Below, in pieces: positions 2,883-51,865 of a stretch of DNA of 64,000 bases. The notes under the pieces are model-generated. The model was not told the origin of the DNA, searched no databases, and saw only the letters and a program-made list of their open reading frames with translations. The translations under genes and the position numbers were made by a program. The stretch is from Sedimenticola selenatireducens. Lineage in GTDB: Bacteria; Pseudomonadota; Gammaproteobacteria; Chromatiales; Chromatiaceae. Each line of letters begins with the position of its first letter. The stretch's first letter is position 1. The stretch covers positions 1 through 64,000 of the forward strand of contig NZ_VMNH01000007.1 in NCBI RefSeq assembly GCF_007625115.1. The letters are read 5' to 3'.

Positions 2883-5042
2883 ATGCAATCGGCTCCCAAT
2901 CTTTTCTCTCATCGTCAGTTCTGGGCCAAGCGGTTCGGCACGGCTCCGGTTCTTCCCATGTCCAGGCAAGAGATGGATGCGCTTGGCTGGGATAGCTGTG
3001 ATGTGATTTTGGTGACGGGCGATGCCTATGTCGATCACCCCAGTTTTGGTATGGCGTTGATTGGCCGGTTGCTGGAGTCTCACGGTTTTCGAGTCGGCAT
3101 CATCGCACAACCTGACTGGCGTTCGACGGAAGATTTCCAGCGCCTTGGGAAGCCCAATCTCTATTTTGGTATTACCGCCGGTAATATGGATTCGATGGTC
3201 AACCGCTATACGTCTGATCGGAAGATTCGCTCCAATGATGCCTATACGCCGAATGGAGAGGGCGGAAAGCGACCCGACCGTTCCGTAGTCGTGTATGCCC
3301 AGCGAGCCCGTGAAGCGTTTAAAGGTGTGCCGATTATCATTGGTGGTATTGAGGCCAGTCTGCGCCGAATAGCGCACTACGATTACTGGTCGGATAAAGT
3401 ACGTCGCTCCATTCTGCCTGATTCGAAAGCAGATCTGCTGATGTTTGGTAATGCCGAACGGGCGATTGTTGAAGTGACGCACCGGTTGGCACAAGGTGAA
3501 CCGATCAGTGATATCACGGACGTTCGTGGTACCGGGTTTATGCGGCAGGGATTACCAGAAGGCTGGCTTGAAATCGACTCAAGCGAAGTGGACGAACCCG
3601 GAAAGATCGATCCCAAAATCTCGCCCTATCAGGAAGAACCTGCGTGTGAGACCACGCCGGATAGTACGCCGGCCAATGTGGTCACCTTTCATCATCGGCC
3701 CAAAAAAGCGGACCGTTCACATGCAGTGGTACGCATTCCCTCCTATGATCAGGTTCTGTCCGACCCGGTGTTATATGCCCATGCCTCCCGTGTCTTTCAT
3801 TTGGAGACTAATCCGGGAAATGCCCGTGCCCTGATCCAGCAGCATGGCAAACGGGATGTCTGGCTTAATCCACCACCCATTCCGCTCGAAACTGACGAGA
3901 TGGATCGACTCTACGAGTTTCCCTATACCCGTTCACCCCATCCCGCCTATGGTGATGCGAAGAATCCCGCCTGGGAGATGATCCGTTTCTCCATCCCCAT
4001 CATGCGTGGCTGTTTTGGCGGTTGTACCTTCTGCTCGATTACTGAACATGAGGGGCGGATTATCCAGAATCGTTCCCATGAATCGGTTATACGTGAAATC
4101 GAGACTATCCGGGATACAGTGCCTGATTTCACGGGCACCATTTCTGATCTGGGTGGACCCACCTCCAACATGTATAAGATGCGTTGCGAGAGTGAAAAGA
4201 TTGAATCCGCTTGTCGTCGACTCTCTTGCGTCTTTCCTGATGTCTGCAAACATATGCAGACCGATCACAGTTCATTGACCCAGCTCTATCGCAAGGCAAG
4301 GGCAGTAAAAGGCGTAAAGCGGGTGTTGATTGCCTCTGGTCTGCGTTATGACTTGGCGGTGCGCGATCCTGAGTACATCAAAGAGTTGGTGACCCATCAT
4401 GTGGGTGGCTATCTGAAGATTGCCCCCGAGCATACCGAAGAGGGTCCACTGGACAAGATGATGAAACCGGGGATCGGTACCTATGACCGCTTCAAGAAGT
4501 TGTTTGAAAAATATTCCAAAGAGGCGGGGAAAGAGCAGTACCTGATTCCCTATTTCATCGCAGCGCATCCGGGTACGTCGGATAAGGATATGTTGCATCT
4601 TGCGCTCTGGTTGAAAGAGAACGGCTTCAGGCCGGATCAAGTGCAGGCGTTTCTACCGACACCGCTGGCCATTGCTTCGGCGATGTATCACACACAACGC
4701 AATCCACTGAAAAAGATCAAGCGGGATTCAGAGCAGGTTTCGATACCCAAGGGTGGACGACAACGTCGCATTCATAAAGCGTTTCTGCGTTATCACGATC
4801 CAGAAAACTGGCCGCTGTTACGAGAAGCCCTGAAGCAGATGGGTCGCGCTGATTTGATTGGAAACGGCAAGCGGCATCTGGTCCCAACCTGGCAACCTGC
4901 CGGTACAGGTGGTAAGGCAACATCTTCAGCCAAGGCAAAGGTGGGATCAGTAAAGCGTCCACAAAAGAGCAGGCCTTCGCAAGGTGTAAAAGCCAAGGCC
5001 AAATCACCCGCACGCAACAGATCAGGACAACGAAAAAAGTAG
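2883..5042 (+). CDS. ygiQ: YgiQ family radical SAM protein
   Basis: A 719-residue cytoplasmic radical-SAM protein of the YgiQ (UPF0313) family. The N-terminal about 300 residues are the YgiQ-specific domain ([19 protein letters not shown], then [18 protein letters not shown]). The radical-SAM core has the iron-sulfur ligand motif C-FGG-C-TF-C in [13 protein letters not shown] near residue 385. The C-terminal domain is followed by a tail of about 50 residues rich in Lys, Arg, Ser and Ala, probably disordered and possibly nucleic-acid binding. The chemical reaction of the family is not known to me. A TATACT box about 35 bases upstream could be the -10 of its promoter. It is monocistronic; a palindromic repeat lies just after the stop. 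Confidence 0.93.
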
Positions 5043-26188: not shown

Positions 26189-27358
26189 TCAAACAGCTGG
26201 ATCTTTGGCGGCCTGTTGGATGAACTGTCGGATGCGTGGTGCAATCTCTTCTCTGAATCGCCGACCATTAAAAATACCATAGTGACCGACACTTTTTTGT
26301 GTGTAGTGCTCATGCAGTCGGGTATTGGGGGAGAGCCTGTGAGCGGCTTTGGTTTGACCTGGGCCTGTGATGTCGTCCAGTTCCCCTTCAATAGTCATTA
26401 AGGCCGTACGCTCTATCAATGCTGGTTTTATCAAGCGACCACCACACTCGAGAATGCCCTTCGGCAGATGATGTTCGAGAAAAACCTTCTCGATAGTTTC
26501 CAGATAAAAAGGCGCATCCAGATCCATCACCGCCAGGTACTCATCATAAAAGGCTTCATGCTGAGTGGCGCTGTCACCATCACCGGAGACCAGATGTTCA
26601 AAGTAGTCGTGATGGGCTGTCATGTGCCTATCCAGATTCATCGAGAGAAAGCCTGCAAGTTGTAGGAATCCTGGATAGACCGACCGACCTCTACCTCTGC
26701 GATTAAGTGGCACAGTATGGATGGTGTGTCGCTTGAACCAGTGAATATTTCGTTGACCGGCAAAGTCATTCACTTCGGTCGGGGTTTTCCGTGTATCCAC
26801 GGGGCCACCCATCAGGACCATGCTCAAAGGGACCGGCTCCTGATCTTCGGACATCAGTGCCACAGCGGCGATAGCCGGGACGGACGGCTGACAGACCGCC
26901 ATGAGATGGACATTGCCATTGAAGTAGCGAATGTACTCCTTCAGATATTCGACATAACTGTTGAGTGTGAAACGGCCATCTGAGAGTGGCACACTGCCGG
27001 CATCATGCCAGTCAGTGATGTATACATTATGATCGTTCATAAACTCACGAACCGTACCGCGCAGCAGGGTGGCGTAGTGACCTGACATGGGTGCCACCAT
27101 GAGCAGATTTGGTTTGCTTGCGTCGGGTGTGCCGAAACGCAATAGATCGCCAAAGGGATTGCAGATGACCGTAGTCTCTTCCACGCCCAGATCAAAAGCA
27201 GGCCTTGAATAGGGACGGGTATAGCGTTCTAGCAGTCGACTGGCAGCATGCCACTGTTTCATCCATGGGATATCTTTTGTCAGAGTGGCATTCATGAATG
27301 CGTAGAAGTTGACTGAGCGGGCCCAGAATGTACCTAAGGCATGGAGATTATAAAGCAT
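26189..27358 (-). CDS. phaZ: Intracellular polyhydroxyalkanoate depolymerase
   Basis: A 389-residue alpha/beta hydrolase of the intracellular PHA depolymerase family, which hydrolyses stored polyhydroxybutyrate. Seen: LYNLHALGTFWARSVN at the start, NPFGDLLRFGTPDAS, NLLMVAPMSGHYATLLRGTV, ITDWHDAG, and the nucleophile region HLMAVCQPSVPAIAA (Cys in place of the usual Ser). Later come the Asp in GELDDITGPGQT and the His in KSVGHYGIFNGRRF. The catalytic Cys-Asp-His set is complete. The implied carbon-storage polymer needs a synthase not seen in this window. It is monocistronic; its upstream spacer is shared with divergent msrB and holds a DnaA-box pair. Confidence 0.93.
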   Translation of the reverse strand: MLYNLHALGTFWARSVNFYAFMNATLTKDIPWMKQWHAASRLLERYTRPYSRPAFDLGVEETTVICNPFGDLLRFGTPDASKPNLLMVAPMSGHYATLLRGTVREFMNDHNVYITDWHDAGSVPLSDGRFTLNSYVEYLKEYIRYFNGNVHLMAVCQPSVPAIAAVALMSEDQEPVPLSMVLMGGPVDTRKTPTEVNDFAGQRNIHWFKRHTIHTVPLNRRGRGRSVYPGFLQLAGFLSMNLDRHMTAHHDYFEHLVSGDGDSATQHEAFYDEYLAVMDLDAPFYLETIEKVFLEHHLPKGILECGGRLIKPALIERTALMTIEGELDDITGPGQTKAAHRLSPNTRLHEHYTQKSVGHYGIFNGRRFREEIAPRIRQFIQQAAKDPAV

Positions 27359-27594
27359 AAAGATGGCTCATTAGACTGCTTGAGAAGTGAGTTACAGTAA
27401 CGGTAATAGTGCGGTGCAGCAACCTCTCAAGTGTTTTTTCAACCCATTATTTTATTCGCCGCAGTTATGAGGTGAATGGTAACAAATGTAACTGATTGAA
27501 TTGTATGTAGATGTGGCTGTATGAATTATGGTCAATCAGTTCCGGGTCAGCTCAGATAACGTTCTTCGATCATTCACGAACAATTGTTAACAGG

Positions 27595-27619
27595 GTTATC
27601 CACACGATCTGTGGATAAC
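27595..27619. promoter_or_regulatory. Paired perfect DnaA boxes in inverted orientation
   Basis: TTATCCACA at 27596-27604 and TGTGGATAA at 27610-27618 are both exact matches to the DnaA-box consensus, facing each other over 5 bases; the arms extend to GTTATCCACA/TGTGGATAAC. They lie in the 346-base spacer (27359-27704) between divergent phaZ and msrB, about 90 bases before msrB. The spacer also contains the palindrome AACAATTGTT at 27580. No gene lies in the spacer. Confidence 0.8.
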
Positions 27620-27707
27620 TGCGAGAGGCCATAAGCGCTCTATTTATAAGGTTTATATCGGCGCTGTTTTAGGCTATAGATCCTTTTAATGCAGGAAGGA
27701 GGATATG

Positions 27708-28178
27708 ATGAGTAATGATAGGCCCGTGAAGGTGAGCCGTTCATTTAAGCGGCCAGATGATGAGCAGTTACGCCGTGAGTTAACGGAGTTGCAATATCAA
27801 GTCACACAGCAGGAAGGGACTGAGCGACCTTTTCAGAATGAGTATTGGGATGAGAAACGTGTAGGACTTTATGTAGATGTGGTCAGTGGTGAACCATTGT
27901 TCTCATCCGTTGATAAGTTTGATTCGGGCACTGGCTGGCCAAGCTTTTTTCGTGTGGTCAACCCAGATCATATTGTTGAACGTAAAGACCGAAAATTGTT
28001 TATGACTCGTATCGAGGTACGCAGTCGTGAGGGTGACTCCCATCTAGGGCATCTGTTTGATGATGGTCCTGCGCCAACCGGACTGCGTTACTGCATCAAC
28101 TCAGCGGCGCTTCGATTTATCCCCAAGGAGGCACTTGAGACAGAGGGGTATGGAGAGTACCTGAAGCTTTTTGAGTAG
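27708..28178 (+). CDS. msrB: Peptide methionine-R-sulfoxide reductase
   Basis: A 156-residue MsrB, which reduces methionine-R-sulfoxide in proteins. Seen: [31 protein letters not shown], the motif [13 protein letters not shown], and the catalytic Cys in [14 protein letters not shown]. The two CxxC zinc-binding pairs of many MsrB proteins are absent ([16 protein letters not shown] has no Cys), so this is the zinc-free subtype, and no resolving Cys is obvious. AAGGAGG lies five bases before ATG 27708; an ATG at 27705 is too close. Transcribed away from phaZ, past the DnaA-box site. metZ, another methionine gene, follows. Confidence 0.95.
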
Positions 28179-28257: not shown

Positions 28258-28360
28258 GCGCCGATTTATCTCAGATTGCGGGCGCTATAAAAATGCGGCT
28301 AAAGCGAGGAATACCTGCTTTGGCTGTGGTAAGCCAGGCGGGTTTTTTTGTGCCCGCAAT
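28258..28360 (+). promoter_or_regulatory. Structured leader RNA upstream of metZ (attenuator or riboswitch candidate)
   Basis: Three mutually exclusive or nested foldings are visible. ATTGCGGGC (28275-28283) pairs perfectly with GCCCGCAAT (28352-28360), closing the element. Inside, GCGGCTAAAGC (28295-28305) plus AGG (28307-28309) pairs with CCT (28314-28316) plus GCTTTGGCTGT (28317-28327), a 14-bp hairpin with AATA loop. That hairpin uses the left half of an intrinsic terminator (28314-28349), so it is an antiterminator. The 5' arm also has an alternative partner: GCGCC (28258-28262) with GGCGC (28281-28285). The layout is that of a ligand-, tRNA- or translation-responsive attenuator controlling metZ. 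It does not fit the SAM-I, SAM-II, SAM-III or SAH consensus patterns I know. No short leader peptide rich in Met codons was seen. Confidence 0.65.
28314..28349 (+). terminator. Intrinsic terminator within the metZ leader
   Basis: CCTGCTT (28314-28320) and GGCT (28322-28325) pair with AGCC (28332-28335) and AGGCGGG (28336-28342), 11 bp with one bulged T and loop GTGGTA, followed by seven T. The metZ start lies 41 bases further on. Confidence 0.85.
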
Positions 28361-28390
28361 GTCTTTTTATTCAAAAGAAGGTTTTCTTAA

Positions 28391-51498: not shown

Positions 51499-51544
51499 AA
51501 GCCCTTGTGCATTTTTGATCTTGCATTAAAATAGCCGACTCTGA

Positions 51545-51712
51545 TGGGTGCCCCTCGTGGGTTAAAAGGGAACAAGGTGAGTCATCCAGACAACTCCTTG
51601 ACTGTCCTCGCAACTGTAAGCAAGTAGTCCGGTCTCAACAAGCCACTGACAACCTGTCGGGAAGGCGACACCGGGTGATGATCTGCAAGTCAGGAAACCT
51701 GCCTCTCACGCG
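51545..51712 (+). promoter_or_regulatory. Cobalamin riboswitch
   Basis: The adenosylcobalamin-riboswitch pattern is present in order: GGGTGCCCCTCGTGGG, AAAAGGGAACAAGGTGAGTC, TCGCAACTGTAAGCAAG, CCACTGACAA, GGGAAGGCGACA, and the B12 box GCAAGTCAGGAAACCTGCC at 51685-51703. It lies 200 bases before btuB and will lower btuB expression when the coenzyme is abundant. Ends of the aptamer are approximate. Confidence 0.95.
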
Positions 51713-51865
51713 TCGCAATTCTATTGAACGGGGTATTCTGTAGAGCGGTCATCCGTTAGCTGGCGCATTCAAGCAGGCTGGAAAAGCCTGTACTTGTATG
51801 CAGTCCTGTTGTAGCCGAATCATCTTCGGTCCCTGCAGCATAAACAAGTCTCACTTTTCCGTCCT

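Follow-up and report, generated by a model that had tools for sequence, protein, structure and literature searches.

The question raised by the spacer between a phaZ-like gene and msrB in Sedimenticola selenatireducens is what two perfect DnaA boxes, set face to face across 5 bp, are doing between two divergent genes. The window analysed here, a stretch of 64,000 nucleotides, carried a first-pass annotation which reported the facing boxes, the 10-bp inverted repeat formed by the pair with a flanking G and C, and the position between divergent phaZ and msrB genes; each of these observations holds (Table 1). The annotation overlooked a third box-like 9-mer, TTGTTAACA, which sits exactly 3 bp outside the first of the pair, so that positions 27584–27619 read TTGTTAACA ggg TTATCCACA cgatc TGTGGATAA c, with the inner boxes II and I separated by CGATC. 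This is the layout of the cores of DARS1 and DARS2, the E. coli sites at which ADP-DnaA is converted back to ATP-DnaA. The stretch 27584–27618 is probably a DARS1-like core that would recharge DnaA, the exchange itself being extrapolated from E. coli.

Table 1. Features of the phaZ–msrB spacer and the flanking genes, in window positions
Feature	Position	Strand	Basis
Candidate DARS-type core (box III, 3-bp spacer, box II, 5-bp spacer, inverted box I)	27584..27618	+	box-match score, conservation
Box III-like 9-mer TTGTTAACA	27584..27592	+	6/9 matches to TTATCCACA
Perfect DnaA box TTATCCACA, counterpart of DARS box II	27596..27604	+	
Perfect DnaA box, inverted, counterpart of DARS box I	27610..27618	-	
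10-bp perfect inverted repeat, box pair plus flanking G and C	27595..27619	unstranded	
Promoter-like block before msrB (TTTATA, 17 bp, TATAGA)	27652..27680	+	seen by eye in 9 aligned genus spacers
msrB (SelR PF01641), downstream neighbour	27705..28178	+	E 4e-48
Intracellular PHB depolymerase-type gene, phaZ-like (PF06850), divergent neighbour	26189..27358	-	E 2e-85

The core is intergenic, lying in a 346-bp spacer, with 33 bp separating it from the downstream promoter-like block and 86 bp from the msrB start. A block of similar appearance can be seen by eye before msrB in all nine aligned spacers from the genus, including five that have no core, and we read it as a putative promoter; a sigma-70 promoter scan did not list it. 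When the window was scanned for box matches, the core scored 24 of 27 and was the sole site above 20; a score of 20 belongs to the same core read from the opposite strand. The best score in the reversed window was 17 of 27, and 21 stretches picked independently of cores reached at most 19 of 27. No Rfam family was found in the spacer at gathering scores.

Chance accounts poorly for the pair. The genome (4.03 Mb in 41 contigs) contains 51 perfect DnaA boxes, 22 forward and 29 reverse, compared to 18 occurrences of the pattern read backwards. Head-to-head perfect pairs are expected by chance 1.6e-4 times at one given spacing and 0.005 times over 31 spacings; with spacings of 0–30 bp allowed, two were found, both of exactly 5 bp. 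The rarity claimed in the first-pass annotation thus stands for the pair but not for single boxes, of which the window holds 20 with at most one mismatch against 14.75 expected, a number reached by 9 of 100 shuffles. Nor are there many similar pairs genome-wide, which the annotation had named as a result that would count against it: a scan allowing up to three mismatches in the inner boxes returned four sites, with one for the reversed-pattern control. At each of the four, a 9-mer resembling box III stands 3 bp outside box II. Matches in boxes III, II and I are 6, 9 and 9 of 9 at both the phaZ/msrB core and the HNH/priA core, 8, 9 and 8 at the Sel1/ycgN core, and 8, 9 and 7 at the SH3/typA core. 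The core at priA, the only other one in the genome with two perfect inner boxes, has the same 9-mer TTGTTAACA in the box III position. The gene dnaA, flanked on both sides by perfect boxes, lies on a contig other than that of the msrB core (C26:328189); the priA core is found on the same contig as dnaA, 188 kb away (C26:140168).

In E. coli MG1655 the DARS1 and DARS2 cores show 7, 9, 8 and 7, 8, 7 matches of 9 in boxes III, II and I, with spacers of 3 and 5 bp, and three other E. coli loci score 15, 16 and 17. Passages of PMC5742627 describe DARS as three boxes, box I being opposite to II and III, with equal spacing at both sites. Excerpts of that paper, of PMC8682772 and of PMC10380432 describe the head-to-head arrangement as essential for ADP release and box III as helpful. 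The msrB core shares the three boxes, the opposed box I and the 5-bp and 3-bp spacers, with a weak box III (6 of 9), and is a non-coding site away from oriC in so far as it is intergenic and dnaA is on C26.

DARS1, in the bioD–uvrB spacer, is likewise a short core in a spacer. The msrB core differs in that its inner boxes are both perfect while box III is weaker (6 rather than 7 of 9), and in its neighbours, phaZ and msrB. DARS1 has a stimulatory flank according to passages of PMC5742627; a conserved flank was not seen at the msrB core. The absence of uvrB next to it means that it is not placed as a DARS1 orthologue would be. DARS2, upstream of mutH, has the same core and spacings, and carries three additional DnaA boxes together with sites for IHF and for Fis according to sections of PMC4245941 and PMC4585315. 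The msrB spacer, by contrast, gave no match to three IHF and Fis consensus patterns in any of the four core-bearing genomes of the genus, and mutH is not adjacent, so that orthology to DARS2 fails on both counts; neither uvrB nor mutH is found among the immediate neighbours of the genome's four cores. Gating of the msrB core by IHF and Fis was dropped for want of a consensus match, and for the same reason a simple DARS1-like site would be expected rather than an IHF/Fis-gated one resembling DARS2. DARS1 is independent of the trans-acting activators of DARS2 in the account given in part of PMC4245941. The double-box sites of E. coli at polA, purH, nrdD and datA, as listed in a section of PMC11317965, are also DnaA boxes outside oriC; their boxes are given there as tandem and 2–3 bp apart, whereas the msrB pair is head-to-head.

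The DnaA of this organism is identical to that of E. coli at 288 of 467 positions, and at 68 of 94 in domain IV. Judged from its sequence it retains D269, R285, L290, R227 and the domain IV positions that were checked, as would be expected of a DnaA able to respond to DARS; it differs in having Q for E21 and F for H136. In E. coli, ADP-DnaA is made by Hda, and an Hda is encoded here (279 bits against an NCBIfam cut-off of 194.8), as is Fis (E 2e-23). D269 (sensor 1) and L290 (AID-2) are named for DARS activity in passages of PMC5742627, from which part of the residue roles is taken.

Within the genus, the gene order phaZ–msrB is kept in nine of nine genomes, the window's genome included, and two of the nine assemblies are only 65% and 78% complete. 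The msrB core is present in the spacer of four (G000, G004, G007 and G008) and missing from that of the other five, where the best score is 16; conservation of the pair in relatives, proposed in the first-pass annotation as a check, is therefore seen in three of the eight other genomes and not in the remaining five. Where the core occurs it is selectively conserved: its 35 bp are 97% identical among the four genomes, while two 40-bp blocks on each side are 31–42% identical in ungapped comparison, and box III has 5 of 9 matches in G007 and G008. Since five of the nine genomes lack it, the msrB copy is dispensable in the genus. The priA core was found in all nine genomes, and the ycgN and typA cores in seven each. 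A box III-like 9-mer with 5 to 8 matches was present at 3 bp in 20 of 20 further retrieved loci, although loci from one genus are not independent; four other pair matches, each with three mismatches, look like chance.

The same layout recurs in other genomes of the class. In a first survey of 55 genomes, 24 (the window's included) had a perfect pair within 30 bp; among the 34 of the family, 16 had such a pair and 18 did not. In a wider survey the pair was found in 121 of 276 class genomes, again including the window's, and was lacking in 155, while the reversed pattern occurred in one of 276. Of the 40 head-to-head matches in the first survey, 38 had a spacing of 5 bp and two of 17 bp. In the class survey, among the matches listed, the spacing was 5 bp in 70 of 75 and 17 bp in two, the others being 22, 29 and 30 bp. 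A spacing of 17 bp is 3 + 9 + 5, the same layout measured from box III to box I. Because these counts require perfect inner boxes, worn cores, such as those of E. coli itself, are missed.

Evidence on the third box comes from 52 non-redundant loci selected solely for the pair (53 before removal of one duplicate). A third box with at least six matches lay at exactly 3 bp in 48 of them, whereas each other spacing in the range 0–8 bp gave such a box at 0–2 of the 52; at the four exceptions box III scores 5, 5, 5 and 1. Everted pairs provide a comparison. They occurred in 14 of 114 genomes against 53 of the same 114 for head-to-head pairs, and their spacings ran from 9 to 26 bp, with 26 bp the commonest (5 of 15). 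Two everted perfect pairs (G108:C1:150390 and G066:C1:575028) stand directly after dnaA and are probably part of oriC.

A scan for the full core, with one genome per species, returned at least 117 stretches; since sites were selected for TNNACA in box III, the scan does not count as separate evidence for that box. Among the 117 matches listed, nine are labelled only Proteobacteria, five are labelled as other groups and the rest as Gamma- or Betaproteobacteria, with genera including Pseudomonas, Legionella, Xanthomonas, Nitrosomonas and Methylomonas. Labels of other groups, for which contamination is possible, are those of a Planktophila MAG (L087), a Bacilli MAG (L121), an Alphaproteobacteria MAG (L131), Asaia (L174) and Ectorhizobium (L184). 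In five genomes whose main contig spans nearly the whole chromosome (G003, G052, G104, G150 and G066), the distance from dnaA to the nine cores ranges between 0.09 and 0.71 of a half-chromosome, each contig being taken as circular; on the 3.93-Mb contig of G003, the core-less msrB is 1.51 Mb from dnaA, or 0.77 of a half-chromosome. A separate observation concerns Legionella massiliensis (G311, the genome behind L091), which has 12 pair matches at up to three mismatches, including five perfect ones, against one for the control; the other genomes searched likewise have between 2 and 5.

One neighbour recurs. Of 170 non-viral core loci, no two of them identical, 46 (47 before removal of one duplicate) have the core within 600 bp upstream of priA, and its orientation is the same at every one of the 46, box III being the box farthest from the gene (for example L002, L004, L007, L019 and L065). 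A [CGT]TTA[GC] motif starting 25–27 bp beyond box I accompanies 34 of the 46 priA loci and 22 of 123 other non-viral loci. An inverted repeat between these cores and priA was also considered and dropped, as a 6-mer test found it at 8 of 46 loci, while shuffled sequences averaged 4.8 and reached 11. The sequence preceding priA in E. coli holds no core at 19 or more of 27, its best score being 16. Other neighbours of cores include hemW, xseA, thrB, rimI and a citrate synthase gene. The literature searched gave no account of priA-linked DARS-type cores; the founding paper (Fujimitsu 2009), which lay outside that search, may list some.

The layout is not confined to chromosomes. On contig C40 of genome G006 (L241, about 3620–3660) it reads TTCCTAACA-ggg-TTATCCACA-aattc-TGTGGATAA, with a TrfA gene nearby and surrounding repeats which we take to be IncP-1 iterons; this core probably sits at an IncP-1-type plasmid origin, and 564 plasmid records match the region. 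The full core is also present in 34 IMG/VR contigs, viral by database label (L194–L227), where the recurring neighbours are a gene resembling Pam3 gp33 (DUF7307; 11 loci) and a reading frame with a LexA DNA-binding domain (9 loci). As the layout occurs at an IncP-1-like plasmid origin and on viral contigs as well, it is by itself no proof that nucleotide is exchanged, and the head-to-head DnaA pair may serve more than one purpose under the same three-box layout.

How the msrB core might work can be sketched from E. coli, on which the expected DnaA binding, ADP release and effect on initiation are modelled. Box II and the inverted box I would hold two ADP-DnaA molecules head to head, and the weak box III would take a third DnaA molecule that stabilises the complex through box II. 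The head-to-head contact between AAA+ domains would then loosen the bound ADP. Apo-DnaA would depart and take up ATP, leaving more ATP-DnaA for the next initiation at oriC. A DARS core is the best fit to the layout, the exact spacing, the selective conservation and the small number of copies per genome. The chance estimates, geometry and conservation point to a genuine DnaA-binding element, as the first-pass annotation had proposed, while the three roles that it offered, a DnaA-regulated promoter, a titration site or part of an ectopic origin, suit the evidence less well than a DARS core, a name that it did not contain.

Regulation of msrB, or of phaZ, by DnaA at this core would couple the replication cycle to the repair of methionine sulfoxide or to the use of PHB, and sections of PMC11317965 document gene regulation by E. 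coli DnaA. The short distances from the core to the msrB start and to the promoter-like block would suit such an operator. A role that depends on where the core stands with respect to the gene would account for the single orientation at the 46 priA loci, but so would common descent. However, a similar block stands before msrB in the five genus genomes that have no core, the other cores of this genome precede unrelated genes (priA, ycgN and typA), and 15 of 16 E. coli bound regions in the part of PMC11317965 concerned have close matches to tandem boxes 2 or 3 bp apart rather than a fixed head-to-head layout, although DARS1 and DARS2 are themselves among the 16. An operator is unlikely here. Two perfect boxes should also bind with high affinity, and excerpts of PMC12371093 argue for titration by chromosomal DnaA boxes in E. 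coli; the core could then bind and hold DnaA with its nucleotide unchanged. Titration calls for a number of boxes, though, while what is held across the class sample is a fixed head-to-head layout with 5-bp and 3-bp spacers, and everted pairs are both fewer and variably spaced; we regard this role as distinctly unlikely.

DnaA boxes at the oriV of RK2 help to load the helicase DnaB, and the occurrence of the same layout near a TrfA gene among iteron-like repeats in G006 raises the possibility that the msrB core is an ectopic or plasmid-type origin. The two share the core layout; the iteron-like repeats and the TrfA gene of G006 were not seen beside the msrB core. The neighbours of the msrB core are the phaZ-like gene and msrB, with no initiator gene among them, and dnaA is on another contig. 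Such an origin is very improbable. The palindrome itself could form an 11-pair RNA hairpin (-14.5 kcal/mol), but a terminator scan found none between 27300 and 27800, on which ground a terminator was rejected. A hairpin would leave box III at exactly 3 bp unexplained, and some cores have a box I unlike box II (TGTGAGTAA, TGTGAATAA), which reduces the symmetry; for a palindrome arising by chance the expectation given above is far too low. A hairpin or a chance palindrome is hardly credible.

DARS has been studied mainly in E. coli and species near to it. Passages in print report DARS-like sequences in V. cholerae (PMC6090056) and in 'many proteobacterial species' (PMC10380432), and part of PMC8682772 compares DARS across seven species close to E. 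coli. A broader scheme can be offered tentatively, and is somewhat more doubtful than not when taken as a whole: DARS recharging would be old and general in the Gammaproteobacteria, including the former Betaproteobacteria; the priA site would be the most widespread, in a fixed orientation; copies of the msrB type would be gained and lost, tuning initiation; and some plasmids and phages may draw on, or recharge, the DnaA of their host. The 35-bp signature with its exact spacings makes such sites mappable across the class and reveals the recurring priA-linked copy. Spacers between phaZ and msrB with and without the core form natural pairs for asking whether the number and position of recharging sites tune initiation, and the set of cores allows a direct test of whether geometry alone suffices for ADP release.

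Two further features of the window were observed outside this spacer. Between msrB and a Cys/Met PLP-enzyme gene, positions 28261–28390 appear, by eye, to contain a G+C-rich repeat with a run of T after it; there is no Rfam match there. At 51529–51720 (+) there is a cobalamin riboswitch (RF00174, 111.8 bits).
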